In this document: one piece after another, positions 19,887-38,492 of the stretch
Layout of the letters: each line of letters opens with the position of its first letter
Position numbering within the stretch: the first letter of the stretch is position 1
Origin: Mitsuokella sp. oral taxon 131 str. W9106
GTDB taxonomy: Bacteria; Bacillota; Negativicutes; Selenomonadales; Selenomonadaceae
DNA: 64,000 nt
Assembly: GCF_000469545.1 (NCBI RefSeq)
Contig: NZ_KI273061.1
Coordinates: forward strand, 1 to 64,000
Direction: 5' to 3'
Notes under the pieces: generated by a model
What the model was told of the DNA's origin: nothing
What the model saw: only the letters and a program-made list of their open reading frames with translations
Databases searched by the model: none
Program-made: the position numbers and the translations under genes

Positions 19887-21377
19887 TCATAGCACGCGTC
19901 CTGCCTCCAGCAAATGAATCGTGTCGGCAAAGTCACGGAGCAATGCGTGCTCATGTGAGATGAGGAGCATGCCAAGTCCTCGCTCGGTGCGCAGGCGCAG
20001 GAATAGATCCAGGATCTGCGCCTGCAGGGAAATGTCGAGCATGGTCGTCGGCTCGTCTAGGAGCAGGATGCGCGGCTTTGTGAGGAGTGCCCGCGCAATT
20101 GCCGCGCGCTGAAGCTCTCCTCCTGAGAGCTCGTGCGGATAGCGCGCGAGGATGTGCTCCGTCAGCTCTGCTGCCGAAAGCGCGTCTATGACCTGCTCCC
20201 TTTTCGTTCGCCCCGCGCGCAGTAAAATGGGATGGACGGCAAAGACCTCGGCAAGGCTCATCCCGATGCTGCGGCGCGGATCAAACGCCTGTTCCGGGTT
20301 CTGTGCGACAAGCTGCACGTCTCTGTGAAAGGCGGGGGCATCGGCACGCGGAAGCGCGGCGATATCACGGCCATTCCAGCGCACGGTGCCGTCATCGGTG
20401 GGCAGGAGTCCGAGCAGGATCCGTACGAGCGTGCTCTTTCCTGCGCCGCTTTGCCCTTCGAGCCCAACCGCACGTCCTGTGTCGACCGTCAGGCTGCAGT
20501 CCGTGAGCACGCGCATCTGCGCGCCGCTCCTACGGTCGCGCATGTATTTTGTCACGCCCTCTGCTGCAAGGACAGCGTGATCTTTTGGCGGCACGGGATC
20601 CACTCGGCGTACCTCCCGCTTGGCGGTGTGGGCGGATTCTTCCACTTGGGCATTCACCGCTTCATCTGCCCGCCCTTGTGTGACGATCTGCCCCGCCTGC
20701 AGGACGACGACGCGGTCCGCCAAACGCCGCGCAAGCGGGAGGTCGTGCGTGATGAGGAGAAAGGAGCCGCCTGCGCGTGCGGCGAGGCAGGACAGCTCCT
20801 CTGCGACCATCTGCCATACGGCTGGATCGAGCCCTTTCGTCGGTTCATCGGCAAGGATCCATGACGGTTCGCCCGCATCCGCCATCGCACAGAGCACGCG
20901 CTGCAGCATGCCACCAGACAGTTCGTGGGGATAGGCGTGCAGGATGCGCTGCGGATCGTCGAACCCGAACCGTTCGAGAAGGGATATATATGCTGCCGCA
21001 TCCCATGGCGGGCGCCCTGCACCGCGCCGCACGTCCGCTAATTGCCGCCCGATCCGATGCACGGGGCTGAGTGCGGCGCGCGGCAACTGCGGCACGATGC
21101 CCCACTGTTTGCCCCAGTACTGCGTACGCAGGATCGCTTGCGGGCAGGCAAGCACATCCATGCCCGCAAATCGGATGCTGCCGCTCGCCTGTGCGCCTGC
21201 AGGCAGTGCGCCGTAGAGTGCCTGTCCGAGCGTTGACTTCCCGCTGCCGCTCTCCCCGATGATCGCCGTGACTTCGCCCGCGGGAAAGGTCGCGCTCACG
21301 CCGTTGAGCGCCCGCACTCCGTTCGGGTAGCAGACCGTGAGATCGTGCACGGCAAATCCGTTTTCCTGTGCCGTCAT
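19887..21377 (-). CDS. Fused double ATP-binding protein of a peptide/nickel-type ABC transporter (DppD-DppF-like)
   Basis: 496 residues with two complete ABC domains. Domain one (about 1-235) has GESGSGKST, the LSGGMLQRV signature and WILADEPTKGLD; domain two (about 265-495) has GQSGAGKST, LSGGELQRAAIARAL and ILLLDEPTTMLD. Each subunit of the Opp/Dpp/Nik family is usually a separate gene; here both are one chain. The ATG overlaps the upstream permease stop (ATGA). The stop codon lies in a GCGTGC/GCACGC hairpin. Energises import by the two permeases upstream in the operon. Confidence 0.92.
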   Translation of the reverse strand: MTAQENGFAVHDLTVCYPNGVRALNGVSATFPAGEVTAIIGESGSGKSTLGQALYGALPAGAQASGSIRFAGMDVLACPQAILRTQYWGKQWGIVPQLPRAALSPVHRIGRQLADVRRGAGRPPWDAAAYISLLERFGFDDPQRILHAYPHELSGGMLQRVLCAMADAGEPSWILADEPTKGLDPAVWQMVAEELSCLAARAGGSFLLITHDLPLARRLADRVVVLQAGQIVTQGRADEAVNAQVEESAHTAKREVRRVDPVPPKDHAVLAAEGVTKYMRDRRSGAQMRVLTDCSLTVDTGRAVGLEGQSGAGKSTLVRILLGLLPTDDGTVRWNGRDIAALPRADAPAFHRDVQLVAQNPEQAFDPRRSIGMSLAEVFAVHPILLRAGRTKREQVIDALSAAELTEHILARYPHELSGGELQRAAIARALLTKPRILLLDEPTTMLDISLQAQILDLFLRLRTERGLGMLLISHEHALLRDFADTIHLLEAGRVL

Positions 21378-22186
21378 CCGCGTACCTCCTGCCGAACGTC
21401 GAGACGCCGATGCAGCATCTGTCCGACTAAGTTGAGCGAGCTCACGAGCAGGATGATCGCCGCTCCTGGGACGATGATGAGATGCGGCGCCTGCCGATAG
21501 TAGAGCATGGCATCGCTGATCATCGTGCTCCAGTCTGGCGTCGGCGGCTGGACGCCGAGTCCGAGGAAGCTGAGTCCTGCGACTGCAAGCACGCCGCGTC
21601 CGAGCCGCAGCGTGCCGAGCACGAGGAGGGTTCCGCCGAGTGCGGGCAGAAGATGGAAGAGGATGATGCGCCCATCACTGCAGCCGAGGACGCGAAGCTG
21701 CTCGACGTACGGCTCTGCTGCGCGCTGCATCACCTCTGCGCGCACGATGCGCGAAAAACCTGCCCACGAACCCGCCACGAGTGCGAGCAGGAGCCCCGTG
21801 ACGCCGGGACCGACGAATCCCGCCACTGCTACCATGAAACTGATGCCCGGAATTCCTTGAAAGATATTGGTCAGCGTTGTGAGTGCGGCATCCGTCCGGC
21901 CGCCGAAATAGCCTGCAAGCATCCCTACGAGCGTACCAATGCCGAGCGCGAGCAGCGTCGAGACGAGGGAGAGAAGGAGCGCACTGCGCCCGCCGTAGAG
22001 CATGCGGCTGAGCAGGTCGCGTCCGAGTGCGTCCGTTCCGAGGAGGTGCGCCATGGAGGGGGGCTGCAGACGGATCGCCATATTTGGTTCGAACGGATTC
22101 ATCGGGGCGAGCTGCGGGGCGAAGATCCCCGACAGCACGATTCCCGCCAGCACGAGGAGAGCGGCATAGCCCGTCATTCGATCCAT
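21374..22186 (-). CDS. ABC transporter permease (DppC/NikC-like)
   Basis: 270 residues, about six transmembrane segments. The N-terminal LAPMNPFEPN...LLGTDALGRDLLSRMLYGGR motif is diagnostic for the DppC/NikC family, and the EAA-like loop is FSRIVRAEVMQ. Overlaps the upstream permease by one base and the downstream ATPase by four. Inner-membrane half of an importer with the DppB-like protein. Confidence 0.92.
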   Translation of the reverse strand: MDRMTGYAALLVLAGIVLSGIFAPQLAPMNPFEPNMAIRLQPPSMAHLLGTDALGRDLLSRMLYGGRSALLLSLVSTLLALGIGTLVGMLAGYFGGRTDAALTTLTNIFQGIPGISFMVAVAGFVGPGVTGLLLALVAGSWAGFSRIVRAEVMQRAAEPYVEQLRVLGCSDGRIILFHLLPALGGTLLVLGTLRLGRGVLAVAGLSFLGLGVQPPTPDWSTMISDAMLYYRQAPHLIIVPGAAIILLVSSLNLVGQMLHRRLDVRQEVRG

Positions 22187-23139
22187 CAGCGCTCACCTCC
22201 TAGGGCAATGCGCGGATCCATGCGTGCCAGCACGAGATCCACTGCGAGCGTCACCAAAACGTAGATGCCGCCCAAGAAGAGCACGTAACCCTGCAGCAGC
22301 GGATAGTCCCGATAGTGAATCGCCTCGAGCGCAAGCGATCCGATTCCCGGAAGGGCAAAGACCGTTTCTACAATGATCGCTCCGCCGAGCACTGCCGCTG
22401 CGAAATTGCCGAGCATGGCCGTCACGGGCACGAGCGCGTTGGGCAGCGCATAGGAGAGGAGCACGCGCGTTTCGGAAAGCCCGCGCAGGCGTGCCGTCTG
22501 GGCATAGAGCGAGGAAAGCGCCTCGCGCAGATGCGCATCGAGGAGCTGTGCTGTCATCGCGAGTGTCACAAGGGCGAGCGCGAGTGAGGGCAGGAGATAG
22601 CCCGCCGCTGACTCCACCCCGTTGGTCGGCAGGACATGCAGCCAGACGCCAAAGACGAGGATGAGAAGGATCGCCGTCAGGAAGGACGGCACTGCGAGCA
22701 TGACCTGTGCCATCCCGCGAAGCAGCATCGCTGCCGTCCCGCGAAGCCGCACCATCAAGAGACCGAGACCGATGCCGCCAGCCATCGCCCAAAGGAGCGC
22801 CGCTCCCGCAAGGGCCGCCGTCACGGGCAGGCGATCCAAAAGAGCGGTAAAGACCGGAATTCCCAAATGGTAGGACATTCCGCCGTCACCATGCAGGAGA
22901 CGCCAAAGCCAAAGCCCATACTGCACGTAGGGCGGTGCATCGAGTCCGAGATAGCTGCGCAGCGCGGCGACCTCCGCATCGGACGGCATCCCCGTCCCTG
23001 CGCCCTCGAGCAGGATCTCCGCTGGATCGCCCGGCGAGAGCTGGGCAAGGATAAAGGCGAGCAGGCTGATGCCGAAGAGCACGGGCAGCGCACCGAGAAG
23101 CCGCCATGCAATGTATCGCTGCCATGCATTCATCGCCAA
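22186..23139 (-). CDS. ABC transporter permease (DppB/NikB-like)
   Basis: 317 residues with six predicted membrane segments. RYIAWRLLGALPVLFGISLLAF and LSPGDPAEILL at the N-terminus, and SYALPNALVPVTAMLGNF with GAIIVETVFALPGIGSLALEAI near the C-terminus are DppB/NikB hallmarks. Its start overlaps the end of the binding-protein gene by 10 bp. Forms the translocation pore with the DppC-like subunit. Confidence 0.92.
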   Translation of the reverse strand: MAMNAWQRYIAWRLLGALPVLFGISLLAFILAQLSPGDPAEILLEGAGTGMPSDAEVAALRSYLGLDAPPYVQYGLWLWRLLHGDGGMSYHLGIPVFTALLDRLPVTAALAGAALLWAMAGGIGLGLLMVRLRGTAAMLLRGMAQVMLAVPSFLTAILLILVFGVWLHVLPTNGVESAAGYLLPSLALALVTLAMTAQLLDAHLREALSSLYAQTARLRGLSETRVLLSYALPNALVPVTAMLGNFAAAVLGGAIIVETVFALPGIGSLALEAIHYRDYPLLQGYVLFLGGIYVLVTLAVDLVLARMDPRIALGGER

Positions 23140-24680
23140 TTTACCTCCCGCAGGGACACGCCATAGCGCAGGGCACGATAGCCCGTCAGGCGCGCCTTGT
23201 TATAGACTGCAATGGTTTCATCGTAGTAGAGCGGAACCAGCGGCTGCTCTGCCACGCTGATCGCTTGGATCCGATCAAACATCGCGCGTCGCTTTCCCTC
23301 ATCGGGCTCGGTGTTCAACGCTGCCAGCAGAGTATCGATCTCGGGGTTGTCATAGCCGAGGGATAGAGCCTTGTTACGCGTTCCGTTTGGCGAGAAAAAA
23401 CCGTTGAACACGTATAGGGGATCGCCGCTCGGCAGTCCCTGCTGCGAGCGCGCCATATCATAGTCCCCGCGCCGCATTACCGCCGTCATCATGGGCGACT
23501 CAAGTGCCTCAATGCGCACATCGAGTCCGAGATCCGCGAGCCAGTAGGCGATCAGCTCCGCCTCGCCCTTGGCGATCGGATCCGCGCCGTTCACGCAGTA
23601 GACGACCTTTTGCCGCCTATCGCCGAGCACTTCGTGCGCGAGCCGCTTTGCTTCCGTGGCATCCTGTTCTATAGGAAACGCCTTGTAAAAAGGGCTTGCT
23701 ATGCTCAAGAGGTTCATTGTCGGTGTCGCGTAGCCGAGATAGAGCGCGTCCACGAGCAGGCGGCGGTTGATCAGGAGACTCACCGCGCGGCGCATCCGCA
23801 CATCGTCAAATGGATGGCGCGTCCCATTCATCGCGAGATAACGCACCATGATGGAGCGGCTCGTCGAGACGGCGAACCGTTCATCCTGCGCCAGCTCGTC
23901 GGCGAGCACGGGCGGCATCGCATTGAGATCCAAGACGCCCATGATCTCCTCCGCCTTGAGCGCAGCGAAGCGTACCTCTGGACTCGGGATGCTGCGCACC
24001 ATGATGCGGCGCGCGCGCGCCTTCTCGCCGTAGTAGTTTTCATTGCGTTCGAGGAGGACATAGCGGTCCTTCACGTTCTCCACGATGCGAAATGGACCCG
24101 TCCCGACCGCAACGCCTGAGAAATTGCCGTCATCCGCAAGACAGGAGGGGGCATAGACCGGGCTGCCGAAATTCATCATATTATAGAGTTGGTTGATGTT
24201 CGGTTGGGAGAACGTCATGCGCACCGTCAGCTCATCGAGTGCCTCCACGTGCACGAGATTTGGATAGTAAGTCTTGCGGCTGCGCGCATAGAATGCCGTA
24301 CTGCGCGGCTCTTTTGCCATCCAGTCCAAATTCGTGACGACAGCCTGCGCCGTAAGGGGCGTGCCGTCGTGGAAGCGGACTCCCGCGCGCAGGTGAAACA
24401 CCCAGACGCGTCCTCCCTCCAGCATCTCCCATGAGGTCGCGAGGCATGGCGCGGGCTCGCCCGTCTCCTCGTCCGCCGTGATGAGCGGTTCCCAGACATC
24501 GAGGATCCTGCTGCAGTAGTAGCCGTCATTTTCGCCTGGCGCAAGCTGGCGGTAGGCGGCGAGCACGATGGTATCCCCGTCTGTCGCAGCATGCTCGGAT
24601 TCCCCCTGCTCTGCCCTTTGCCCGCAGCCTGCGACGGCGGTCAGGAGTATGAGCAGGAACAGGGCACGCAAAAATCGCAT
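23130..24680 (-). CDS. ABC transporter substrate-binding lipoprotein (SBP family 5)
   Basis: 516 residues. A lipoprotein signal (FLLILLTAVAGC) is lipidated at the Cys near residue 19. The family-5 solute-binding fold is shown by LATSWEMLEGGRVWVFHLRAGVRFHDGTPLTAQAVVTNLDW and the later VAVGTGPFRI and RRAVSLLINRRLLVDALYLG. Family 5 binds peptides, nickel chelates, haem and similar ligands. In this operon, behind a cobalamin riboswitch and a TonB receptor, a cobalt chelate or corrinoid is the likelier ligand. ATG at 24680 is chosen over 24710 because it begins the signal peptide after GGGGGATG. Confidence 0.9.
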   Translation of the reverse strand: MRFLRALFLLILLTAVAGCGQRAEQGESEHAATDGDTIVLAAYRQLAPGENDGYYCSRILDVWEPLITADEETGEPAPCLATSWEMLEGGRVWVFHLRAGVRFHDGTPLTAQAVVTNLDWMAKEPRSTAFYARSRKTYYPNLVHVEALDELTVRMTFSQPNINQLYNMMNFGSPVYAPSCLADDGNFSGVAVGTGPFRIVENVKDRYVLLERNENYYGEKARARRIMVRSIPSPEVRFAALKAEEIMGVLDLNAMPPVLADELAQDERFAVSTSRSIMVRYLAMNGTRHPFDDVRMRRAVSLLINRRLLVDALYLGYATPTMNLLSIASPFYKAFPIEQDATEAKRLAHEVLGDRRQKVVYCVNGADPIAKGEAELIAYWLADLGLDVRIEALESPMMTAVMRRGDYDMARSQQGLPSGDPLYVFNGFFSPNGTRNKALSLGYDNPEIDTLLAALNTEPDEGKRRAMFDRIQAISVAEQPLVPLYYDETIAVYNKARLTGYRALRYGVSLREVNWR

Positions 24681-24751
24681 AGGACATCCATCCCCCTTTT
24701 GGAGCGACAAAAAGGGCAGGAAAAACGTCTGCCCTCCCTGCTTTTCTTCCT

Positions 24752-26965
24752 TTAGAGATCCATTGACATCGTGAGCGCGAGCGTGCGCGGCGTCGAGAGA
24801 ATGAGATTGTTGTTGTCGCGCGAGACCATCCAGTAGTCCTTGTTTAGTGCGTTGTACAGGGTTAAGCCGAACGTTGTTGGCACAGTGCCCAGCTTCGTCT
24901 TATACGTCATACCGAGATCGAGCACCGTAAACGAAGGAGCTTTGAACCTTTCGTTCAGTATATAGGCACTGCCCGCATAGGAAATGCGACCGAAGGCACT
25001 GAACCGATCATCCGCTGCATACTGTGCCGTCAAGGAGCCATGCCAGCGCGGCTGGCCATCCTTTGCCACACCGTCGAGTACGCCGCCCTTCGTCTTTTCA
25101 TTTGTTGCATTCATATAGGTCAGCCCCGCCGCAAGTGTCCATTTCGACGCGATCTTCCCCGCCATGCCGAATTCTGCCCCACGGTGACGGTCCTTCCCAT
25201 CCTGCCGCAGGTAGTTGTTCACGGCTATGTTATTTGCCTGTGTGATGTCAAAGAGTGCGAGCGAGTAGAGAACGCCCTTGTTCGCATACTTGACGCCGAT
25301 CTCGTTTTGTTTCGTCTTCGCAGGCGGCAGGATCTCGCCGCTATTCACATACGAACTGCCAACCACCGAACCGACATTAAAGTACTCTGCATGGCTGACA
25401 TAGACCGCTGTATCCTTTGTCGGATGATAGGCCAGCGCAAGCGTCGGGGTCGTCGCACTGGACGAAACGCTCGAGGTTATATGCCCCGCCCGATTGTAGC
25501 TGTCCACGTCGGCAGTGTGGTGATGCACCCCGACCATCAGATTCCACTTGTCCAAATCAACCGAATCAACAAAGGAAATGCCCTTGATCGTCGTCTTGCT
25601 CTTCGTCCCCGCCACGTAGTCCGTCGGCGGCATCTGCGCCTGATGAAGGATCCCCGTGTAGATATTCCCCGTCCCAAGGCTCGTGGTGGAAAAGCCGAAC
25701 ACACCGCCGAGATTCCGCCATGCGCGGTCTGCCGCAAGCGTCAGCGTATGCTCTGCCCTGCCCGTCCTTGCCTTGCCGCTCACGCCCGCCTGCAGGTAAC
25801 TCGCACGCTGCGGTGTTCCCGTCGTCTGGGATTTCAGCGCGAAATCCCCTGCGTCGTTTAGGATCGTCACGGCGCTGTACTCAGGCATGACATTCTTGTT
25901 CAGCTTGTTCTTGAGATAGCCTGCGTTGACAAACCAGTTCCAATCCTTCGAGAATTTCTGCTCGTGGTTGAGGATCATCATCCAGCCATAGGATTCCTTG
26001 TCCATGCCGTCAAACGCGTAGCTGCGCGATGCCTTTGGCACAGACGGGAAGCGGGTCACCCCAGTGCCGAGCTTGAACCAGCGCACGCCGCCGACGACCT
26101 CGTTCTGACGATAGCCCGTAAAGAAGTTTGTCTTGCTTTTTGCATCGCTGTGGTCGAGGTTGATATAGATGCTCGACGCCTTTACCTTCTGCCCATCGAC
26201 TGCGGTCTCGCCGTCCACCTTCTCTGCCATGAGCCGTGCGCCCCAATCCTTGTCCCTGCCAAAGCGGCGGGAGAGGTCGAGATAGGCGCCGCCCATGCTC
26301 TGCCCGCCGTGGGTGAGCGTGAAACGTGTTAGGTCACGATAGCCCGCGCGCTTCGTCGTAAGGTTCACAAGACCGCCCGCCGCCGAGGACTCGTACTGCG
26401 TCCCAGTGCCCGATAGGCCGCTGTTCGGTCCCGAAACCACGTCCGCCTTCCCGATGACATACATCGGCGCGTTGAACTGCGTGAACATCCCCGGCACGCC
26501 ATTGACATACAGGCTGGTTCCATTCGCGCGAAAGCCCCGATGCTGGAAATCGTTGTGCAGGATGCTGCCCGTTGCACGAATCGACGGTGAGATGCGGAGC
26601 ACACTGTCGAGTGGTTGCGTTGGGTCGCCGAAGGCTTGGATCGCCTTCTGCGTCATGTTCGTCGTCGTAAACGGGACATCCATGGCGTCCTTCTCACCGA
26701 GGAAGCCGAACGTCCCGTGCCGTGTGACAAAGCCGTCATGTTCCGTGCGGCGCGCTGTCACGACCGTCTCTTGAAGTTCGTGGGCGTTGCTGTCCGCGGC
26801 TTTTTCTGCTGGCTGGTCCTCCTGCGCCGCCGGCGTTTCTGCCGCCGCAGGTTCCCCTGCTGCGGCCGGGACGGCGGCATCGCTCTCCTGCGCTGCGGCC
26901 GGGTACGTCCACGCCGCGCCGAGCGTCACCAGCGCGGCCACGAAAGCCAAATTTCGTTTTGTCAT
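24752..26965 (-). CDS. TonB-dependent outer membrane receptor
   Basis: About 737 residues. Signal peptide (cleavage near AAA-Q), an Ala/Glu/Pro-rich stretch (about 30-60), TonB box ETVVTARR, plug domain (about 80-220: RISPSIRATG, HRGFRANGTSLYVNGVPGM, GAGG-like SSAAGGLVNLTTKRA) and a 22-strand barrel. ATG at 26965 has GGGGG eight bases upstream; an ATG two codons earlier is too close. Homologous in style to siderophore receptors, but it follows a cobalamin riboswitch, which suggests a corrinoid or cobalt complex as ligand. First gene of the ABC operon; also evidence for an outer membrane. Confidence 0.92.
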   Translation of the reverse strand: MTKRNLAFVAALVTLGAAWTYPAAAQESDAAVPAAAGEPAAAETPAAQEDQPAEKAADSNAHELQETVVTARRTEHDGFVTRHGTFGFLGEKDAMDVPFTTTNMTQKAIQAFGDPTQPLDSVLRISPSIRATGSILHNDFQHRGFRANGTSLYVNGVPGMFTQFNAPMYVIGKADVVSGPNSGLSGTGTQYESSAAGGLVNLTTKRAGYRDLTRFTLTHGGQSMGGAYLDLSRRFGRDKDWGARLMAEKVDGETAVDGQKVKASSIYINLDHSDAKSKTNFFTGYRQNEVVGGVRWFKLGTGVTRFPSVPKASRSYAFDGMDKESYGWMMILNHEQKFSKDWNWFVNAGYLKNKLNKNVMPEYSAVTILNDAGDFALKSQTTGTPQRASYLQAGVSGKARTGRAEHTLTLAADRAWRNLGGVFGFSTTSLGTGNIYTGILHQAQMPPTDYVAGTKSKTTIKGISFVDSVDLDKWNLMVGVHHHTADVDSYNRAGHITSSVSSSATTPTLALAYHPTKDTAVYVSHAEYFNVGSVVGSSYVNSGEILPPAKTKQNEIGVKYANKGVLYSLALFDITQANNIAVNNYLRQDGKDRHRGAEFGMAGKIASKWTLAAGLTYMNATNEKTKGGVLDGVAKDGQPRWHGSLTAQYAADDRFSAFGRISYAGSAYILNERFKAPSFTVLDLGMTYKTKLGTVPTTFGLTLYNALNKDYWMVSRDNNNLILSTPRTLALTMSMDL

Positions 26966-27026
26966 TTCCATGTCCCCCTAGATCCTTCGTCTTTTCGCCC
27001 TGCACAGGATGTGCCAATATGCCCAC

Positions 27027-29697: not shown

Positions 29698-30022
29698 TAA
29701 ATAATTCTACCATAAAGAAAAAAGAAGTCAAGGCATACGCGCCATCGTTTCCCGTGTGACGCGAGGAAATGCCCGCGCGCCTTGCAGGCGGGATGGATTT
29801 CGAAAGCGAGGTGGATTTCGAAAAAGGAATGAGAGATGCGCGACTTTAGCAGGAGATTGGAATCTGCCTGTCGAAAAAGAAATCGTTGGTGTATGAAAAT
29901 CTGAAAATCGTCTGTGTGGGAGGAAACCCGCAGGGGGCCTCACTGCGCCGCATGATGGTTTTGCCGTGCGCCAAAGAGCAGGCACACGGTTCATGCGCAA
30001 GGAGAAAAGAGGAGGAAAAGAC
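29698..30022. other. Intergenic region before the hydrogenase
   Basis: A roughly 325-bp gap. It holds two GGATTTCGAAA copies (29795-29805 and 29813-29823, 18 bp apart) that could be an operator, and the AGGAGG site for the small subunit at 30010. I could not settle on a promoter and see no coding frame with a ribosome site. Confidence 0.4.
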
Positions 30023-31120
30023 GTGGAAAAACGGGAGAGCATGTGGGATGTATATCTCAGGCGCGGCATGAGCCGTCGCAGCTTCGTAAAGGGCTGCGTC
30101 GCATTGACATCCCTGATGGGGCTGTCGACGGACATGCTGCCGAAGGTCGTGGAGGCGGCGGAATCGAAGCCGCTGCCGGTCGTCATTTGGATCCATGGGC
30201 ATGAGTGCACGGGCTGCGATGAGTCGTTCATCCGTTCGGGCGCCCCGCTCGCGTCGGACCTCATCCTGACGCAGATCGCACTCGAGTACGACCATCTGCT
30301 TGCCGCTGCCTGCGGCGAGCCGTTTGAGGCGCATCTCGAAAAGACCATCGAAACGTACAAGGGGAAGTACATCCTCGCAGTCGAGGGCGCCGCCTGCACG
30401 AAGGATAGTGGCGTCTACTGCATGTCGGGCGGGCATACGTTCACGGAGACGCTTCGCCGTGCGGCAGCGAATGCGGCGGCGGTCATCGCGTATGGCACGT
30501 GCGCTGTTTCGGGCGGCATTCAGGCGGCAAATCCGAACCCGACGGGGTCTTCTGGCATCGCGCAGTTCGTCGGCAAGACGCCGCTGGTGAACGTGCCGGG
30601 CTGCCCGCCGATCCCGGAGGTCATGACGGGCGTTGTCATGCACGTCGCGCTCTTCGGCACGATCCCGCCGGTCGACGGCTCGGGACAGCCGAAGCAGTTC
30701 TACGGCAACCGCATCCACGATACGTGCTACCGCCGTCCGTTCTTCGACGCGGGCATGTTCGCGGAGAGCTATGACGACGCGGGCTCGAAGGCGGGCTGGT
30801 GCCTCTACAAGCTCGGCTGCCGCGGCCCTGAGACGTACAATTCGTGCGGCAACCTGCGCTGGTATCAGGGCATGAGCTATCCGATCCAGTCGGGGGCGCC
30901 GTGCATCGGCTGCTCGAACGCGCATTTCTGGGACGATGGCGCGATGAGCGAGCGCCTGCCGAAGTTCGCTTACCCGATCGGCGATGTCGACAAGATCGGC
31001 GCGGCGATCGCAGGCGTGACGGCGGTCGGCGTTGCAGCGCACGCAGCGGCAAGCGTCGTGCAGCGCAACAAGCATCGCGCGGAGAAGGCGAAAGAAAACG
31101 GGGAGCAGGTGACGAAGTAA
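30023..31120 (+). CDS. hyaA: [NiFe] uptake hydrogenase small subunit
   Basis: 365 residues. The Tat signal has SRRSFVKGC (residues 17-25), so the folded heterodimer is exported. Proximal cluster ligands are Cys62 and Cys65 in HECTGCDESF; the position that is Cys in oxygen-tolerant enzymes is Gly here. Distal and medial ligands are in IHDTCYRR, GWCLYKLGCRGPETYNSCG and GAPCIGCSN. A C-terminal hydrophobic helix (AAIAGVTAVGVAAHAAASVV) anchors it to cytochrome b. The GTG at 30023 follows AGGAGG by seven bases; the ATG 19 codons upstream has none. Group 1 respiratory H2 oxidation. Confidence 0.95.
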   Translation: MEKRESMWDVYLRRGMSRRSFVKGCVALTSLMGLSTDMLPKVVEAAESKPLPVVIWIHGHECTGCDESFIRSGAPLASDLILTQIALEYDHLLAAACGEPFEAHLEKTIETYKGKYILAVEGAACTKDSGVYCMSGGHTFTETLRRAAANAAAVIAYGTCAVSGGIQAANPNPTGSSGIAQFVGKTPLVNVPGCPPIPEVMTGVVMHVALFGTIPPVDGSGQPKQFYGNRIHDTCYRRPFFDAGMFAESYDDAGSKAGWCLYKLGCRGPETYNSCGNLRWYQGMSYPIQSGAPCIGCSNAHFWDDGAMSERLPKFAYPIGDVDKIGAAIAGVTAVGVAAHAAASVVQRNKHRAEKAKENGEQVTK

Positions 31121-33034
31121 ATGAAACACGTAGTAATTGATCCAATCACGAGAATCGAAGGCCATCTGCGCACGGAAATACAAGTCGATGAAGCGACGGG
31201 CAAGGTGACGGACGCCATTTCTTCCGGCACGGCCTGGCGCGGGCTCGAGCTCGTCATGCAGGACCGCGACCCGCGCGATGCGTGGGCGTACATCCAGCGC
31301 ATCTGCGGCGTCTGCACGTCGGCGCACGCGCTTTGCTCGCTTCGTGCCGTCGAGGACGCCCTCGGCATCACGATCCCGAAGAACGCGCACTACATCCGAA
31401 ACATCATGGCCGCGACACTGACGGTGCACGATCACGTCGTCCATTTCTACCATCTTCATGCGCTCGACTGGGTCAGCCCCGTCGAGGCGCTTGCGGCTGA
31501 CCCCGTCGCTGCGGCGAACCTCCAGAACACGGTTCTCGGCGCATATCGCCTGCCGCTGCACGCGCCGGGCACGTCGAATACGGAAGCCTATGATCACGAT
31601 TTCCCGAAGGCTTCGCCGCAGTACTACGCAGAGCTCAAGGACAAGCTCAAGGCGATCGTCGAGAGCGGGCAGCTCGGCATTTTCTCGGCGAACTGGTGGG
31701 ATCACCCCGACTATAAGCTGCTTCCGCCTGAGGTGCATCTCATGGCGGTCGGACATTACCTCGAAATGCTTGACAAGCAGCGCGAGCTCGTCACGCCGCA
31801 CGTCATATTCGGCGGCAAGAACCCGCACCCGCACTACGTCGTCGGCGGCATGCCCTGCTCCGTTTCGATGCAGGACGGCAACGCGCCGGTGAACACGGCG
31901 CGCCTCGACATCGTGGACCGTGCGATCAATCTCGGCCGCACGCTTGCAAACAACTTCTACATTCCCGATGTGCTCGCCATCGGCTCGGCCTACGTCAAGG
32001 CAGGCCGCGTCGATGGCGGCGGCCTCGCGAAGACGCGCGTGCTCGGCTACGGCGCGTATCCGATCGAGCCGTCTGCCGGCACGCAGAACGGCGGATTCTT
32101 CCAAAACCTCCTCGTACGCTGCAACGGCGTGGTCGAGGACTTCGGCAAGGGGCTTGCAGCGGCGAAGATCTACGAGATCAACGAGGCGGATTTCAACGAT
32201 CCTGCGGTCTTCACGGAGGGCGTTGAGCACGCATGGTACGAGTACCCCGAAAAGGGACCGAAGGACCGCAATCCTTGGGACGGCGTGACCAGCCCAAAGT
32301 ACACGGGACCGAAGGATGGAAGCGCGACGGAGTGGAAGGCGCTCGACGAAGGCGGCAAGTATTCCTGGCTCAAGACGCCGAAATGGCGCGGCAGGGTCTG
32401 CGAAGTCGGCCCGCTCGCACGCTATATCATCGTCTACGCGAAGGCGCAGAAGGGCATGCTGTCGGAGCCGACTTGGGCAGAGAAGATGATGCTCGATCAG
32501 ATCGCGGCAGTCTCGAAGGTTCTCGCCCTCGCGCCGGAAGTCTGGCTCCCGACGATGGTCGGGCGCACGGCTGCCCGCGCACTCGACGCGCAGCTTGCCG
32601 CAGAGGTCAACAAGTTCTTCTTCGACAAGCTCATCGCGAACATCAAGGCGGGCGATACGCGCATGGCGAACGCGGAGAAGTGGGATCCGTCCTCCTGGCC
32701 GAAAGAGGCAAAGGGCGTCGGTCTCTACGAAGCACCGCGCGGCGCGCTTTCGCATTACATCGTCATCAAGGACGGCAAAACGGCGAACTACCAGTGCGTC
32801 GTGCCGACGACTTGGAACGCTTGCCCACGTGATGCGGTGAGCGGGCATGGCGCATACGAGCTTGCGATGATGGATACGCACGTCGGGATCCCCGACAAGC
32901 CGCTTGAAATCGCGCGCGTCGTCCGCTCGTTCGATCCGTGCATGGCGTGCTCGACGCACATGTTCAACGCGGCGGGCGAGAAGATTCGCGTCTTTACGAC
33001 CGATCCTTACGCCGGCATCAAGGTCGATGAGTGA
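31121..33034 (+). CDS. hyaB: [NiFe] uptake hydrogenase large subunit
   Basis: 637 residues. The active-site cysteines are in RICGVCTSAHA (Cys62, Cys65) and DPCMACSTH (Cys607, Cys610, ending at His613). The 24 residues after His613 would be removed by the maturation protease encoded downstream once nickel is in place. Starts immediately after the small subunit stop. Splits H2 at the Ni-Fe(CN)2CO centre and passes electrons to the small subunit clusters. No Tat signal of its own, so it is carried out with the small subunit. Confidence 0.96.
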   Translation: MKHVVIDPITRIEGHLRTEIQVDEATGKVTDAISSGTAWRGLELVMQDRDPRDAWAYIQRICGVCTSAHALCSLRAVEDALGITIPKNAHYIRNIMAATLTVHDHVVHFYHLHALDWVSPVEALAADPVAAANLQNTVLGAYRLPLHAPGTSNTEAYDHDFPKASPQYYAELKDKLKAIVESGQLGIFSANWWDHPDYKLLPPEVHLMAVGHYLEMLDKQRELVTPHVIFGGKNPHPHYVVGGMPCSVSMQDGNAPVNTARLDIVDRAINLGRTLANNFYIPDVLAIGSAYVKAGRVDGGGLAKTRVLGYGAYPIEPSAGTQNGGFFQNLLVRCNGVVEDFGKGLAAAKIYEINEADFNDPAVFTEGVEHAWYEYPEKGPKDRNPWDGVTSPKYTGPKDGSATEWKALDEGGKYSWLKTPKWRGRVCEVGPLARYIIVYAKAQKGMLSEPTWAEKMMLDQIAAVSKVLALAPEVWLPTMVGRTAARALDAQLAAEVNKFFFDKLIANIKAGDTRMANAEKWDPSSWPKEAKGVGLYEAPRGALSHYIVIKDGKTANYQCVVPTTWNACPRDAVSGHGAYELAMMDTHVGIPDKPLEIARVVRSFDPCMACSTHMFNAAGEKIRVFTTDPYAGIKVDE

Positions 33035-33050
33035 GGAAAGGGTGATTCCA

Positions 33051-33761
33051 ATGAAACCAATGAAGGAAGAGAAACGCAAAGTTTACTACATCTTCAGCCC
33101 GTTTCTTCGCATTTTCCACTGGATCATGGTCGTCGCGATCGTGACGCTCTTCATCACGGGACTCTTCATCACGAAGCCTCCCGTGGTGCTCGGCATCGAG
33201 CCGACGTACACGAGCTTTTTCACGAACTGGGTGCGCAACATCCACTTCCTCGCGGCGTTCACGTTCTGTGCGGCGTTCATCCTGCGCATCTACGGCTTTA
33301 TCATCAACAAGGGGGATCGGCTGTTCCCGCGCGTTTGGGAGGGGCATTTCTACCGGGAGACGCTTGACGTCGCGCTCCACTACATGCTGCTGAAGCCGAC
33401 GCATGCGCCGTTTTTGCGCAACCCGCTCGCGCGCGCGTCGTACGCGGGGCTCTACGTCTTGGTGCTCATCGAGATTCTGACGGGCTTTGCGATGTTCTTC
33501 GCGAAGAACCCGAACTCGATCGGATCGAGCCTGTTCCTTTGGGTGAACGTCGTGCTCTGTGATGAGATGGTCACGCACTGGGTGCATCACATCGTCGCAT
33601 GGCTCATCATGGTCTTCGCGATCGGTCACGTCTATATGGTCGCACGCGCGGATATCATGGAGGCAGAGGGCGAGGCTTCGAGCATGTTCTCGGGGGTCAA
33701 GTTCCTCGAGCATACGCCGCTCGACGCTTGCGAGCTCGGCAAGGAAAGCGAAGGAAAATAA
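33051..33761 (+). CDS. hyaC: Hydrogenase b-type cytochrome subunit
   Basis: 236 residues with four transmembrane helices. Haem-ligand histidines are visible in FLRIFHWIMV, WVRNIHFLAAF, and HWVHHIVAWLIMVFAIGHVYM. Family Ni/Fe-hydrogenase b-type cytochrome (HupC/HyaC). It anchors the dimer and hands electrons from H2 to menaquinone. ATG at 33051 has GGAAAGGGTGA before it; an ATG at 33027 overlapping the large-subunit stop is an alternative. Confidence 0.93.
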   Translation: MKPMKEEKRKVYYIFSPFLRIFHWIMVVAIVTLFITGLFITKPPVVLGIEPTYTSFFTNWVRNIHFLAAFTFCAAFILRIYGFIINKGDRLFPRVWEGHFYRETLDVALHYMLLKPTHAPFLRNPLARASYAGLYVLVLIEILTGFAMFFAKNPNSIGSSLFLWVNVVLCDEMVTHWVHHIVAWLIMVFAIGHVYMVARADIMEAEGEASSMFSGVKFLEHTPLDACELGKESEGK

Positions 33762-33831
33762 GAGGAAATCAAGGGAAGGCGGCTGCGGCACGCGTGTGCG
33801 GGAGCAGCTTCCGTTATAAGGAGACGGTTTT

Positions 33832-34074
33832 ATGTGTAAGGAATGCGGCTGCGGCGAGACGAATGGCAACACGCGCCTGCAGTTTCAGGTGACAGGCTAT
33901 ACGGAAGCGAGCGCGAAGGACGCGGAAAAGGCGCTGCTGGGGCTTCCCGGTGTATTGTACGTCCACATCCACGCGCACGACGGCGAGACGACCGTCGACT
34001 ACAGCCCGAAGAAGACGAAGCTCATGGATATTTTGGGCGTGTTTCAGGCTCGCGGGCTCGAGGCGGCGCTCTAA
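33832..34074 (+). CDS. Small HMA-like protein with HypB-type CxxCGCGE nickel motif
   Basis: 80 residues. It starts MCKECGCGETNGN: Cys2, Cys5 and Cys7 match the high-affinity nickel site at the start of E. coli HypB (MCTTCGCGE). The rest (QFQVTGYTEASAKDAEKALLGLPGVLYVHIHAHDGETTVDYSPKKTKLMDIL) has the beta-alpha-beta-beta-alpha-beta order of heavy-metal-associated domains but lacks the HMA CxxC loop. The gene lies between the structural genes and hypA, with a good AAGGAG site. The local HypB has no such N-terminus, so this may be its detached nickel-binding module. Function is inferred. Confidence 0.8.
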   Translation: MCKECGCGETNGNTRLQFQVTGYTEASAKDAEKALLGLPGVLYVHIHAHDGETTVDYSPKKTKLMDILGVFQARGLEAAL

Positions 34075-34188: not shown

Positions 34189-34279
34189 GACGCCCTCCCG
34201 TTTCTCTGCATACCGTCCTCTTGTCAAACGCACGTCGTTTGGACGAGACAATCGGACGGGGGAGAATCGGGAGGGCGTC
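34189..34279 (+). ncRNA. 91-nt compound hairpin between the CxxCGCGE gene and hypA
   Basis: Nested complementary segments: GACGCCCTCCCG with CGGGAGGGCGTC (12 bp, 34189-34200 and 34268-34279), TTCTC with GAGAA, CCGTCC with GGACGG, TTGTC with GACAA, and AAACG with CGTTT around a CACGT loop. Only small internal loops interrupt it. No T run follows, so it is not a simple terminator. Possible roles are an mRNA processing or stability element splitting the hya and hyp halves, a protein-binding leader, or a palindromic mobile repeat. The strand is assigned from the operon. Confidence 0.55.
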
Positions 34280-34455
34280 TTGACGCTTGCTCCACTATGG
34301 CTCGCTTATGGACGCCGTGCCACGGCAAGCAGGGCAGGCCGTGCGACAGCTGCGCTGCATCCGATGCGTGCTTGACGCGACAGACGCGTCTGGCTTGATG
34401 TGCGGGCTTGGACTTGTGCTTGCGGTGCTTTTGGATGGACGCATGGGAGACGATG
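34280..34455. other. Rest of the 381-bp hya-hyp gap
   Basis: GC-rich with further short palindromes (GACGCGACAGACGCGTC region) and a Cys-rich open frame that I could not support as a gene. The hypA ribosome site GGGAG is at 34445. Confidence 0.4.
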
Positions 34456-34797
34456 ATGCACGAGATGGCGATCGCGGAGGGGATCTTGGATATTGCCCTC
34501 GACTACGGGAAGCGCAATGACGCGAAGCGCATTGCAGAGATCGGGCTTTTGATCGGCGACATGTCGGGCGTGGTCGTGGACTCCTTGGTCTTCTCCTTTG
34601 GGATGCTGGCAAAGGGGACGATCGCAGACGGCGCGAAGCTCGCGATTGAGCACGTGCCGCTTCGCGGGCGCTGTACGAAATGCGGCAGGGAGTTTCCCAT
34701 TTCGCACTACGATTTTTGGTGCCCCGCATGCGGGGACGGCGTTCTTGAGACGATCTCGGGGCGCGAGATGCAGGTGAAGTATTTGGAGGTGGACTAG
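34456..34797 (+). CDS. hypA: Hydrogenase nickel incorporation protein HypA
   Basis: 113 residues. His2 in MHEMAIAEGIL is the nickel ligand; a zinc finger is formed by Cys73, Cys76 (CTKCGREF) and Cys89, Cys92 (CPACGDG). HypA receives nickel and docks on the large subunit together with HypB. The ATG at 34456 follows GGGAG; the in-frame upstream ATG would remove His from position 2. Followed by hypB one base after its stop. Confidence 0.95.
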   Translation: MHEMAIAEGILDIALDYGKRNDAKRIAEIGLLIGDMSGVVVDSLVFSFGMLAKGTIADGAKLAIEHVPLRGRCTKCGREFPISHYDFWCPACGDGVLETISGREMQVKYLEVD

Positions 34798-34798
34798 C

Positions 34799-35461
34799 TT
34801 GGCAGAAATCGAGGTCATGAAAAATATTTTGGGTGAAAACGACCGCGTGGCGGCGGAGAACCAAGCGCTCTTTCGCGAGAAGAACGTCTACGTGCTCAAT
34901 CTCATGGGCTCGCCGGGCGCGGGCAAGACATCGCTCCTGGAGCGCACGATGGAGCGGCTCAAGGGAAGGACGCGCATGGCGGTCATCGAGGGCGACCTCT
35001 TCACGAGCCGGGACGCCGACCGCATCGAGCGGCACGGCGTGCCCGTCATCCAGATCAACACGGCGGGCGGCTGCCACCTCGACGCGCCGATGGTGCAGAA
35101 GGTCGCGAAGAAGCTGGATCTAGGGGCACTTGACCTGCTCCTCGTCGAGAACGTCGGCAACCTCGTCTGCCCTGCGGAATTCGCGGTCGGCGAGGACGAG
35201 AAGGCGGTCGTGCTCTCGATCACGGAGGGCGACGACAAGCCGATGAAATACCCGCTGATTTTCAAGGAATCCGCGATCGCGCTCCTCAACAAGGCCGATC
35301 TTTTGCCGTACTGCGATTTCGATATGGCGGCAGCGAGGGACGACATCCAGACGCTTCATCCCGGCATGGACATCATCGAATTGTCCTGCACGCAGGACAT
35401 GGGGCTTTCGGCTTGGTGTGACTGGCTGCTCGCACGCATCGCGGCGAAGGAAGAAGCATGA
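34799..35461 (+). CDS. hypB: Hydrogenase nickel incorporation GTPase HypB
   Basis: 220 residues, TTG start with GGAGG ten bases upstream. SIMIBI GTPase: P-loop GSPGAGKTS (37-45), IEGD (switch), NKADLLP (guanine specificity). Metal-site residues in the G domain are Cys92, His93 and Cys124 (GGCHLD and NLVCPAEF). The N-terminus (MAEIEVMKNIL) has neither the CxxCGCG site nor the His-rich stretch found in many HypB proteins; the CxxCGCGE motif occurs in the separate gene upstream. Couples GTP hydrolysis to nickel delivery. Confidence 0.95.
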   Translation: MAEIEVMKNILGENDRVAAENQALFREKNVYVLNLMGSPGAGKTSLLERTMERLKGRTRMAVIEGDLFTSRDADRIERHGVPVIQINTAGGCHLDAPMVQKVAKKLDLGALDLLLVENVGNLVCPAEFAVGEDEKAVVLSITEGDDKPMKYPLIFKESAIALLNKADLLPYCDFDMAAARDDIQTLHPGMDIIELSCTQDMGLSAWCDWLLARIAAKEEA

Positions 35462-35472
35462 GGAGGCAGGAG

Positions 35473-36057
35473 ATGGCAGGACGCGAACAGGCGGATTGGA
35501 ATTTTGTGCTCCACCCGTCGGAGGTCACGATCCTCGGCGTTGGCAATGTCATCCTGCGCGATGAGGGATTCGGCGTGCGCGTTGCGGAGTATCTCGACGC
35601 GCACTACACATTTCCGGGCTGCGTGCAGATCGTCGACGGCGGCACGCTCGGCATCGAGCTCACGCAGTACGTGACGGGGACGAAGAAGCTTCTCGTCATC
35701 GATTCCATCAACGGCGGCAAGGTGCCGGGCACGCGCTTCGCATTCCGCAACGATGCGGTCATGGCGCATTTTCAGGAAAAGCTCAGCGCGCATGAAGTCG
35801 GCATTCAGGACGTGCTCGCCCTGCTCGCGGTGACGGGGAAGAAGATCCCCGAAGTCGCGGTCATCGGCGCGCAGCCGTACGACCTTGAGGCGGGCGTCGC
35901 GCTGTCGGACGAGATGCTGGCGCTCGTTCCCGAGGTCGCAGCGGAAGGGATCGCGATCCTCAAGGACTGGGGAATCGAAGCGCGCGGGAAGGAAGCGGCG
36001 GGCAGGATGGACTTTCAGACCGTCGCCGAGGAAGAAATCCGAAAATCCATGGCGTAA
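35473..36057 (+). CDS. hyaD: Hydrogenase maturation protease (HyaD/HybD family)
   Basis: About 194 residues. Nickel-sensing carboxylates are in GVGNVILRDEGFG (Glu/Asp) and DSINGG (Asp), with the later His (AHEVGIQD). It cleaves the C-terminal tail of the large subunit after His613 when nickel has been inserted. The ATG at 35473 has AGGAGG six bases upstream; an ATG at 35458 overlapping the hypB stop is a possible alternative, adding five residues. Confidence 0.92.
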   Translation: MAGREQADWNFVLHPSEVTILGVGNVILRDEGFGVRVAEYLDAHYTFPGCVQIVDGGTLGIELTQYVTGTKKLLVIDSINGGKVPGTRFAFRNDAVMAHFQEKLSAHEVGIQDVLALLAVTGKKIPEVAVIGAQPYDLEAGVALSDEMLALVPEVAAEGIAILKDWGIEARGKEAAGRMDFQTVAEEEIRKSMA

Positions 36058-36100: not shown

Positions 36101-36113
36101 AAAAGGAGGAAAT

Positions 36114-36395
36114 ATGTGCTTGGCTGTACCGGCGAAGGTGCTTGAAATAAATGGTTCGATGGGCAAGGTAGAGCTTTCCGGCGTGACGCGCGACGTGTCG
36201 ATGATGCTGCTGCCGGAGGCAGAGGTCGGCGACTGCGTGCTCGTCCATGCAGGGTTTGCGATGCAGGTCGTGACGGAGAAAGACATCGAGGAGACCAATG
36301 CGCTGCTCGCGGAGATGAACGGCGCACCGCGCACGCTGGAGGATATCCCGGAGATGGCATCGCGGCAAGGGGCGCCCGCAGAGGCAGGCGCATGA
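36114..36395 (+). CDS. hypC: Hydrogenase assembly chaperone HypC
   Basis: 93 residues starting MCLAVPAKVLEINGSMGKVEL. Cys2 binds the Fe(CN)2CO group with HypD and later contacts the large subunit. VGDCVLVHAGFAMQV is also typical. The ATG at 36114 follows AAGGAGGAAAT; an in-frame start at 36075 would bury Cys2. Overlaps hypD by four bases. Confidence 0.95.
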   Translation: MCLAVPAKVLEINGSMGKVELSGVTRDVSMMLLPEAEVGDCVLVHAGFAMQVVTEKDIEETNALLAEMNGAPRTLEDIPEMASRQGAPAEAGA

Positions 36396-37498
36396 CGAAG
36401 GCAGAGGAAAGGGCGCTCGCGAAACGACTCGTCGCAGAGATCGGGCGCATGGCGGATGAGACGGAGAGAAACCTGCGCTTCATGGAGGTCTGCGGCACGC
36501 ATACCGTCGCGATCTTTCGTGCAGGGCTTCGCCAGATGCTGCCAGAGGGCGTTGCGCTCGTCTCAGGTCCCGGCTGTCCCGTCTGCGTGACGCCCGATGC
36601 CTATATGGACAAGGCGATCGCCTATGCAAAACGCACGGACGTGATCCTCGCGACATTCGGCGATATGCTGAAAGTGCCGGGCTCGGCATCGAGTCTCGCC
36701 GAGGCGCAGGCGGACGGCGCGGACATCCGCATCGTCTACTCGCCGATGGACGCGCTCCCCATTGCGCGGGACAATCCCGGCAAGAAGGTGGTCTTTCTCG
36801 CGGTCGGATTCGAGACGACGGCGCCGACGGCGGCAGGCGCCGTGCTCGCGGCAAAAGAAGCGGGGATTGCGAATCTCTACCTGCTGTCGGCGCACAAGCT
36901 CGTGCCGCCGGCGCTTCGCGCGCTGCTCGCGGACCCTTTGGTGGCGGTCGACGGCTTCATCCTGCCGGGGCACGTCTCCGTCATCACGGGGCTTTCGTGC
37001 TATTCGTTCCTGGCGGACGAATTCCATACGCCGGGCGTCGTCACGGGCTTTGAGCCACTCCAGATCCTGCGCTCGCTCTACCGCCTCATGAAGCAGGTGT
37101 CGGCGGGCGAGGCGCGCATCGAGAACGAGTATGAGAGCGTCGTACGCGCGGACGGAAGCCCCGTCGCGAGACGCGTCGTGGACATGGTCTACGAAGAAGC
37201 GGATGCGGCCTGGCGCGGCATCGGCATCATTCCGAAGTCAGGGCTTAGGATGCGCGAAACATTCGCGGACTACGACATCGAGCGGCTCCTCCCGCTCGAT
37301 ATTCCCATGGGGGCGGGGAGACCGGGCTGCCGCTGCGGCGAGGTGCTGCGCGGCATCGTGACGCCGAGGGAATGCCCGCTCTTCGGGGGCGCATGCGTGC
37401 CGACACACGCCGTAGGCCCCTGCATGGTCTCCGTCGAGGGCGTCTGCGCGGCATGGTACAAGTATGGACAGGGGAGGTTTTCCTATGGCAGACGATAA
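36392..37498 (+). CDS. hypD: Hydrogenase formation protein HypD
   Basis: 368 residues. Conserved motifs are MEVCGTHT (Cys), SGPGCPVCVTP, GFETTAPT, and LPGHVSVITG, then the 4Fe-4S cluster region CRCGEVLRG...CPLFG..C. With HypC it assembles the iron cyanide/carbonyl ligands. The start overlaps hypC (ATGA) and the end overlaps hypE. Confidence 0.96.
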   Translation: MTKAEERALAKRLVAEIGRMADETERNLRFMEVCGTHTVAIFRAGLRQMLPEGVALVSGPGCPVCVTPDAYMDKAIAYAKRTDVILATFGDMLKVPGSASSLAEAQADGADIRIVYSPMDALPIARDNPGKKVVFLAVGFETTAPTAAGAVLAAKEAGIANLYLLSAHKLVPPALRALLADPLVAVDGFILPGHVSVITGLSCYSFLADEFHTPGVVTGFEPLQILRSLYRLMKQVSAGEARIENEYESVVRADGSPVARRVVDMVYEEADAAWRGIGIIPKSGLRMRETFADYDIERLLPLDIPMGAGRPGCRCGEVLRGIVTPRECPLFGGACVPTHAVGPCMVSVEGVCAAWYKYGQGRFSYGRR

Positions 37499-38492
37499 GG
37501 TGACGATGGCGCATGGCGCGGGCGGCAGGATGAGCCATGCGCTCATGGAAGAAATCATCCTGCCGGCGTTCGGCAATCCGCTCCTGAATGAGCTGCACGA
37601 TGGCGCACGGCTTGAAATGCGCGGCGAAATCGCGTTCACGACGGATTCATACGTCGTGCGCCCGCTCTTTTTCCGCGGCGGCAACATCGGCAAGCTCGCC
37701 GTCTGCGGCACGGTCAACGACCTCGCGATGACGGGCGCTGTCCCGCGCTACCTCTCCGCCGGCGTCATCCTGGAGGAGGGATTCCCGTTTGAAGACCTGC
37801 GGAAAATCGTCGCAGCGATGCGAAAGGCTGCTGACGAGGCGGGCGTCGCCATCGTGACGGGCGATACGAAAGTCGTCGAGCGCGGCAAGGCGGACGGCAT
37901 CTTCATCAACACGGCAGGGGTCGGCGACCTCATCGCGGGCACGCGCATCTCGCCGAAAGCGGCAAAGCCTGGCATGAAGGTGCTGCTTTCCGGCACCATC
38001 GGCGACCATGCGGCGACGGTGCTCGCGGGGCGACATGGACTTGCGCTGCCAAGTGAGATCAAGACGGACTGCGCACCCCTCGCCGGGCTGACGCAGGCCG
38101 TGCTCGCCGCCGCACCGCACACGGCTGTCCTGCGCGATCCGACGCGCGGCGGCGTCGCGGCGGTGCTCAACGAGATCGCCGAAGCGTCTGGCTGCGGCAT
38201 CCTCATCGACGAGGACGCGATTCCCGTGCGCGAGGCTGTGCGCGGCGTCTGCGACCTCCTGGGCTTCGACCCGCTCTACCTCGCGAACGAGGGCAAGTGC
38301 ATCGCCATCGTGCCGGCGGGCGAGGCGGATGCGGCGCTCGAAGCCATGCGCGCGTCGCCGTACGGCACACAGGCGGCGATCATCGGCGAAGTCAGCGAGG
38401 AGGCGGCCGGGCAGGTCGGCCTTCGCACGGCGATCGGCGGCATCCGCATCGTCGACATGCCGCTCGGCAACATCGTTCCGCGCATTTGTTGA
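37485..38492 (+). CDS. hypE: Carbamoyl-dehydratase HypE
   Basis: 335 residues. PurM-like ATP-binding fold (MAHGAGGRMSHALMEEIILPAF, FTTDSYVVRPLFFRGG, VTGDTKVVERGK) ending in PRIC, whose terminal Cys is converted by ATP-dependent dehydration to the thiocyanate that supplies the CN ligands. The substrate carbamoyl group comes from HypF, which is not encoded in this window. The start at 37485 follows GGGGAGG inside the end of hypD. Confidence 0.95.
   Translation: MADDKVTMAHGAGGRMSHALMEEIILPAFGNPLLNELHDGARLEMRGEIAFTTDSYVVRPLFFRGGNIGKLAVCGTVNDLAMTGAVPRYLSAGVILEEGFPFEDLRKIVAAMRKAADEAGVAIVTGDTKVVERGKADGIFINTAGVGDLIAGTRISPKAAKPGMKVLLSGTIGDHAATVLAGRHGLALPSEIKTDCAPLAGLTQAVLAAAPHTAVLRDPTRGGVAAVLNEIAEASGCGILIDEDAIPVREAVRGVCDLLGFDPLYLANEGKCIAIVPAGEADAALEAMRASPYGTQAAIIGEVSEEAAGQVGLRTAIGGIRIVDMPLGNIVPRIC

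Follow-up and report, generated by a model that had tools for sequence, protein, structure and literature searches.

The window, a stretch of 64 kb of DNA, carries a run of genes in a single orientation that encodes, in order, the small and large subunits of a [NiFe]-hydrogenase, a cytochrome b subunit, a small protein, HypA, HypB, a HyaD-type protease, HypC, HypD and HypE. The features of this run, with the models or other evidence on which each assignment is based, are as follows.

29966–31120, + strand: [NiFe]-hydrogenase small subunit (Pfam PF14720 and PF01058).
31121–33034, + strand: [NiFe]-hydrogenase large subunit (Pfam PF00374, 588.9 bits).
33027–33761 (start approximate), + strand: cytochrome b subunit, immediately preceding the small gene (Pfam PF01292).
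33818–33823, + strand: ribosome-binding site AAGGAG (sequence), 8 bases ahead of the ATG of the small gene.
33832–34074, + strand: open reading frame of the small protein, 80 amino acids, with a MCKECGCGE tail and an HMA-fold body (sequence, model and family conservation).
33832–33858, + strand: codons 1–9, MCKECGCGE, with CxxCGC starting from a Cys at residue 2, as in the Escherichia coli HypB nickel site.
33964–33978, + strand: codons 45–49, HIHAH, on the second strand of the fold, with H45 and H47 invariant and H49 nearly so (alignment and model).
34453–34797, + strand: HypA (TIGR00100, 90.0 bits).
34799–35461, + strand: HypB GTPase without an N-terminal Cys tail (TIGR00073, 261.8 bits; N-terminus read).
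35458–36057, + strand: HyaD/HybD-type maturation protease (TIGR00072, 129.1 bits; TIGR00140, 142.5 bits, just under the 151.8 cut-off).
36111–36395, + strand: HypC (TIGR00074).
36392–37498, + strand: HypD (TIGR00075).
37464–38492, + strand: HypE (TIGR02124).

The gap between the small gene and hypA is unusually long (378 bp), has an RNA fold z-score of −3.5 and contains an imperfect palindrome of about 90 bp at 34189–34279. Four other partial copies of this palindrome lie at separate places in the same genome, which suggests a small dispersed repeat element. On the opposite strand, 3 kb from the hydrogenase operon and following a siderophore-type TonB-dependent receptor, positions 19890–26971 hold an operon of NikA-, NikB- and NikC-like genes with a fused NikD–NikE-like ATPase. 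The best models for these genes are nickel ones, all scoring below cut-off, and the operon possibly serves nickel uptake.

The small open reading frame specifies the protein MCKECGCGETNGNTRLQFQVTGYTEASAKDAEKALLGLPGVLYVHIHAHDGETTVDYSPKKTKLMDILGVFQARGLEAAL. Among 95 distinct 80-residue copies, Cys2, Cys5, Gly6, Cys7, His45 and His47 are invariant even as the codons for these residues vary; the tail (codons 1–9) has a pN/pS of 0.13 and the rest of the protein 0.29. The open reading frame is therefore a real coding gene, and its N-terminal tail is under strong constraint. These data, along with the rarity of the pattern, rule out a chance motif. Specifically, the 64 kb contain a single start codon with CxxCGC immediately after it, against 0.01 expected from shuffles, and the same pattern turns up three times in 17 other genomes of the family, as the full gene, as a remnant in genome G030 and as an apparent chance match. 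A preliminary description of this DNA had proposed an 80-residue protein opening with MCKECGCGE, which is confirmed by the ribosome-binding site and the conservation. Its comparison with E. coli HypB was also right in kind, as the latter forms its nickel site from Cys2, Cys5, Cys7 and the N-terminal amine (PMC7055735) and the three cysteine positions are shared. Both proteins are also linked to hypA, hypC, hypD, hypE and [NiFe]-hydrogenase genes, but the tail examined here belongs to a separate gene and is joined to an HMA body rather than to the HypB GTPase. The roles considered for the very tight HypB site are storage, regulation or delivery (PMC7055735).

The body of the protein adopts a predicted HMA fold, as previously proposed, without the HMA cysteines. 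The Pfam HMA model (PF00403) yields 19.7 bits, under its gathering cut-off of 24.8, and a profile built from 25 relatives hits HMA domains of known structure, with CopZ at 3e-11. An AlphaFold model (mean pLDDT 88.9, with residues 1–4 as the sole run below 50) exhibits the beta-alpha-beta-beta-alpha-beta order of HMA domains and matches CopZ (2qif) over 68 residues with a Z score of 13.1 at 1.2 Å. The GMTCxxC copper loop is replaced by GYTEASA, and no row of two family alignments (A1 and A2) has a cysteine pair in this loop. Strand 2 (residues 41–47 in the model) bears the sequence VHIHAH, wherein the three histidines should face one side because they alternate along the strand. Thus, the protein resembles the CopZ/Atx1 metallochaperones (PF00403) in fold, in profile over residues 13–80 and as a small single-domain carrier, but differs from them in lacking the GMTCxxC loop, in having the CxxCGC tail and the HxHxH strand, and in being found in hydrogenase operons.

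A domain of the nickel protein UreE resembles Atx1. UreE is absent among the 50 structure matches listed for the model, a listing that is no test of kinship. Both UreE, which binds nickel via histidines and serves urease, and SCO4226, a small nickel protein with a ferredoxin-like fold (PMC4186839), are work-alikes in the sense of being small nickel-binding proteins, but neither carries a CxxCGC tail, and the likeness drawn here is one of function.

Closest to the small protein are HMA proteins with the same MCxxCGC tail that retain a copper-type CxxC, such as MCKDCGCGEDNGVVTKVFTVPGMMCNNC in Veillonellaceae and MCKTCGCHG...GMSCAHC proteins in Sporomusa-like families. In a tree, forms with and without CxxC lie on opposite sides of one branch (support 96/89). 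As tail and copper-type CxxC coexist in these HMA relatives, the HMA lineage is a nearer source for the small protein than HypB, and the most economical scenario is that it arose by loss of the loop cysteines from a tailed HMA protein. The tailed CxxC-HMA proteins of Negativicutes (MCKDCGC...GMMCNNC), for which no family name was found, share the fold as well as the tail, but they keep the CxxC, have no hyp genes within reach and lack any nickel marker at 12 of 16 loci. Such tails need not mean nickel, since some CopZ-like proteins near CsoR or CopA carry one. Outside Negativicutes, a search of 398 genomes of the phylum with the family profile returned only ordinary CopZ and CopA HMA domains, a few of them with MCxHCG-like starts, and none of the best-scoring matches that were read is of the HxHxH type.

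The order is represented here by one family, Selenomonadaceae, with 189 genomes, of which 160 carry the small gene and 159 carry HypB above cut-off (152 both, 7 HypB only, 8 the small gene only and 22 neither). For the 99 near-complete genomes, the corresponding counts are 83, 3, 1 and 12, with a Fisher p of 6e-12 that is overstated because the genomes are related and no phylogeny correction was applied; E-values come from single-genome searches. The small gene, HypB and a hydrogenase large subunit of full strength are jointly missing from genus g2 (all 16 genomes) and from G022 in another genus, and two genomes (G065 and G103) have hydrogenase and HypB and lack the small gene. The usual place of the gene is directly after cytochrome b and before hypA, an order of hydrogenase, cytochrome b, small gene, hypA and hypB that is kept across many genera. 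In one genus (g10), in g18 and in part of g8, the gene stands alone, with hydrogenase and hyp genes elsewhere in the same genome; nearly all of these orphan-copy genomes retain HypB. The co-occurrence with hyp genes anticipated in the preliminary description is thus borne out by the 152 genomes with both and by the joint absences, whereas the pattern it had named as damaging, homologues mostly away from hyp genes, applies to the orphan copies in g10, g18 and part of g8 and not to the genomes with the gene in the operon.

Histidine runs occur in many HypB tails, and the copy in g11 has such a run, reading MCATCGCGNHDHHHDHD ahead of the HMA body. In the complete genome G030, the HMA body has been deleted, and the start codon, the ribosome-binding site and the sequence MCKECGCGH are kept; about 25 residues then lead, with no intervening stop, into HypA in that frame, and HypA's own ribosome-binding site is also kept. 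At this locus (L220, 9272–9709), what is left after the natural deletion is a 34-residue peptide, MCKECGCGHRERTIHIHSRMRKRRESIVRKEEPK, in frame with HypA, which could represent either a tail–HypA fusion or a decaying remnant.

Copies without the CxxC outside Selenomonadaceae also lie near nickel genes. They reside in [NiFe]-hydrogenase operons (G560, G569, G578 and G609), directly after HypE (G608 and G596, the latter with CO dehydrogenase nearby), in convergent orientation to LarC (G600), next to nickel-pincer isomerase group 22 (G599, G600, G601 and G603), and after or near NikA-like transporter operons (G556 and G545). Markers within about 7 kb were counted, taking HypE, CO dehydrogenase, LarC, nickel-pincer isomerase, NikA-like transporter and CbiM as nickel markers. 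At least one is present at 14 of 21 no-CxxC loci, at 4 of 16 tailed CxxC-HMA loci and at 0 of 20 control regions placed at fixed coordinates, although the first value is optimistic because the list was partly chosen after the loci had been seen. NikA-like proteins score below nickel-specific cut-offs, and CbiM may carry cobalt. All four tailed CxxC-HMA loci with a marker come from one genus and have only CbiM, about 6 kb off. When only hyp and hydrogenase markers are used, which were fixed beforehand from the window, the counts are 6/21, 0/16 and 0/20, respectively. A genomic tie to nickel enzymes and transporters, as for a metallochaperone, is therefore present, with g10, g18 and G580 as exceptions. 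The last of these genomes has two no-CxxC copies and no HypB. One of its operons (L198, 7383–11930) encodes CbiM, PDGLE, SDR, the large and small subunits of an [FeFe] hydrogenase, cytochrome b and the small protein. Strict partnership with hydrogenase as the sole rule is ruled out by the orphan copies and by the copies at LarC, LarA-like, NikA-like and [FeFe] loci.

The small protein is probably a cytosolic two-part nickel carrier for hydrogenase maturation, composed of tail and HMA body, that hands nickel to HypA/HypB or buffers it and that comes from a copper-chaperone-like ancestor. A Met that precedes Cys is normally removed, and the identity and position of the motif suggest that, once Met1 is gone, Cys2, Cys5, Cys7 and the free N-terminal amine would hold one Ni(II). 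The HMA body, having lost its own CxxC, may act as a docking platform to HypA/HypB, and the HxHxH on the second strand could form a second, looser site or a contact face. Nickel would then be handed to HypA/HypB or buffered for them. As for descent, the tree and the tailed CxxC-HMA relatives point to a copper-chaperone-like HMA protein, already tailed, that may have lost its loop cysteines and joined nickel-enzyme operons.

This carrier function is favoured by the invariance of the three tail cysteines and of His45 and His47, by the conserved place in the operon, by the distribution relative to HypB (83 near-complete genomes with both, 12 with neither and 4 discordant) and by the joint losses in g2 and G022. 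Also consistent with it are the nickel markers that adjoin deep no-CxxC relatives, the histidine run in the g11 copy, the tail kept in frame with HypA in G030 after loss of the HMA body, and the HMA fold with its two forms divided by a single branch. The nickel role proposed in the preliminary description is likely. Arguing against the carrier function are the copies in g10, g18 and part of g8 that lie apart from hydrogenase genes, the two copies in G580, the tailed CopZ-like proteins near CsoR and CopA, the partly post hoc choice of neighbour markers, and the lack of the small gene in G065 and G103.

A broader proposal, which we put forward only tentatively, is that these proteins constitute a new Negativicutes family of stand-alone nickel metallochaperones, derived from copper chaperones, in which the metal site has left the HMA loop for an N-terminal Ni(S3,NH2) tail and which serves a range of nickel systems (hydrogenase, CO dehydrogenase, nickel-pincer enzymes and nickel uptake). 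If true, this would clearly exemplify a copper-chaperone fold that has switched metal by relocating its site to a terminal tail. We found no report of such a tailed stand-alone HMA protein of nickel type in the open-access literature searched. With a HypB-type site residing on its own small protein, Selenomonas-type gut bacteria would allow the contribution of this site to be separated from that of the GTPase by deletion, mutation or titration.

Alternatively, the protein could be a copper or zinc chaperone or buffer whose tail, like that of its CopZ-like kin, takes up Cu(I) or Zn(II), with the operon giving only co-expression, for example to keep copper off the maturation proteins. Thiols prefer Cu(I), the fold is closest to copper chaperones, and tailed CopZ-like proteins do adjoin CsoR and CopA. 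However, the no-CxxC clade has lost the HMA copper loop, has nickel genes rather than copA or csoR as neighbours, and lacks the small gene jointly with HypB and hydrogenase, which makes this explanation unlikely. Somewhat less likely still is a structural or assembly partner of the hydrogenase–cytochrome b unit, or a redox or metal sensor, with thiols that carry no nickel. Such a role fits the position of the gene directly 3′ of cytochrome b in most loci, including the [FeFe] operon of G580, but not its position after HypE in G596 and G608, nor the copies at LarC, at a LarA-like gene and at a NikA-like operon with no hydrogenase gene in view; moreover, the nickel geometry of a CxxCGC motif that starts precisely at residue 2 is known.

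The preliminary description had instead interpreted the protein as a HypB tail split off as its own gene. It was correct that the local HypB, which begins MAEIEVMKNILGENDR, has no CxxC tail; tail and GTPase are encoded by separate open reading frames. However, 62 HypB N-termini read besides the local one, drawn from Selenomonadaceae and about 25 further genera of Negativicutes, all lack a CxxCxC motif ahead of the P-loop, whether or not the genome encodes the small protein, and HypB_prefix_1 (NF053667) has no match in 299 genomes of the phylum. The proposed check, that the small protein occurs only where HypB is tail-less, cannot discriminate because no HypB examined in the class has a tail. 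Thus, although the tail equals the HypB nickel site in letters and position, the local HypB is tail-less and the small protein matches HypB_prefix_1 weakly (17.1 bits, cut-off 30), we reject as very improbable an origin in which an ancestral HypB tail became a separate gene and gained an HMA body, leaving HypB as a GTPase only, given the absence of tailed HypB and of HypB_prefix_1 and the identical tail on CxxC-bearing HMA proteins within the class.

Two variants were observed among the tailed HMA relatives. G547 (L211, 6713–7286) carries a tandem tailed pair, one member with GMTCGHC and the other decayed to DMKNNDC, which shows the copper loop in the course of being lost. Within one genus, a sub-branch (L202, L195, L306 and L307) carries ISIN instead of VHIH (MCKDCGCPAHGSSQVKFF) and lies next to nickel-pincer isomerase group 22 in every case.
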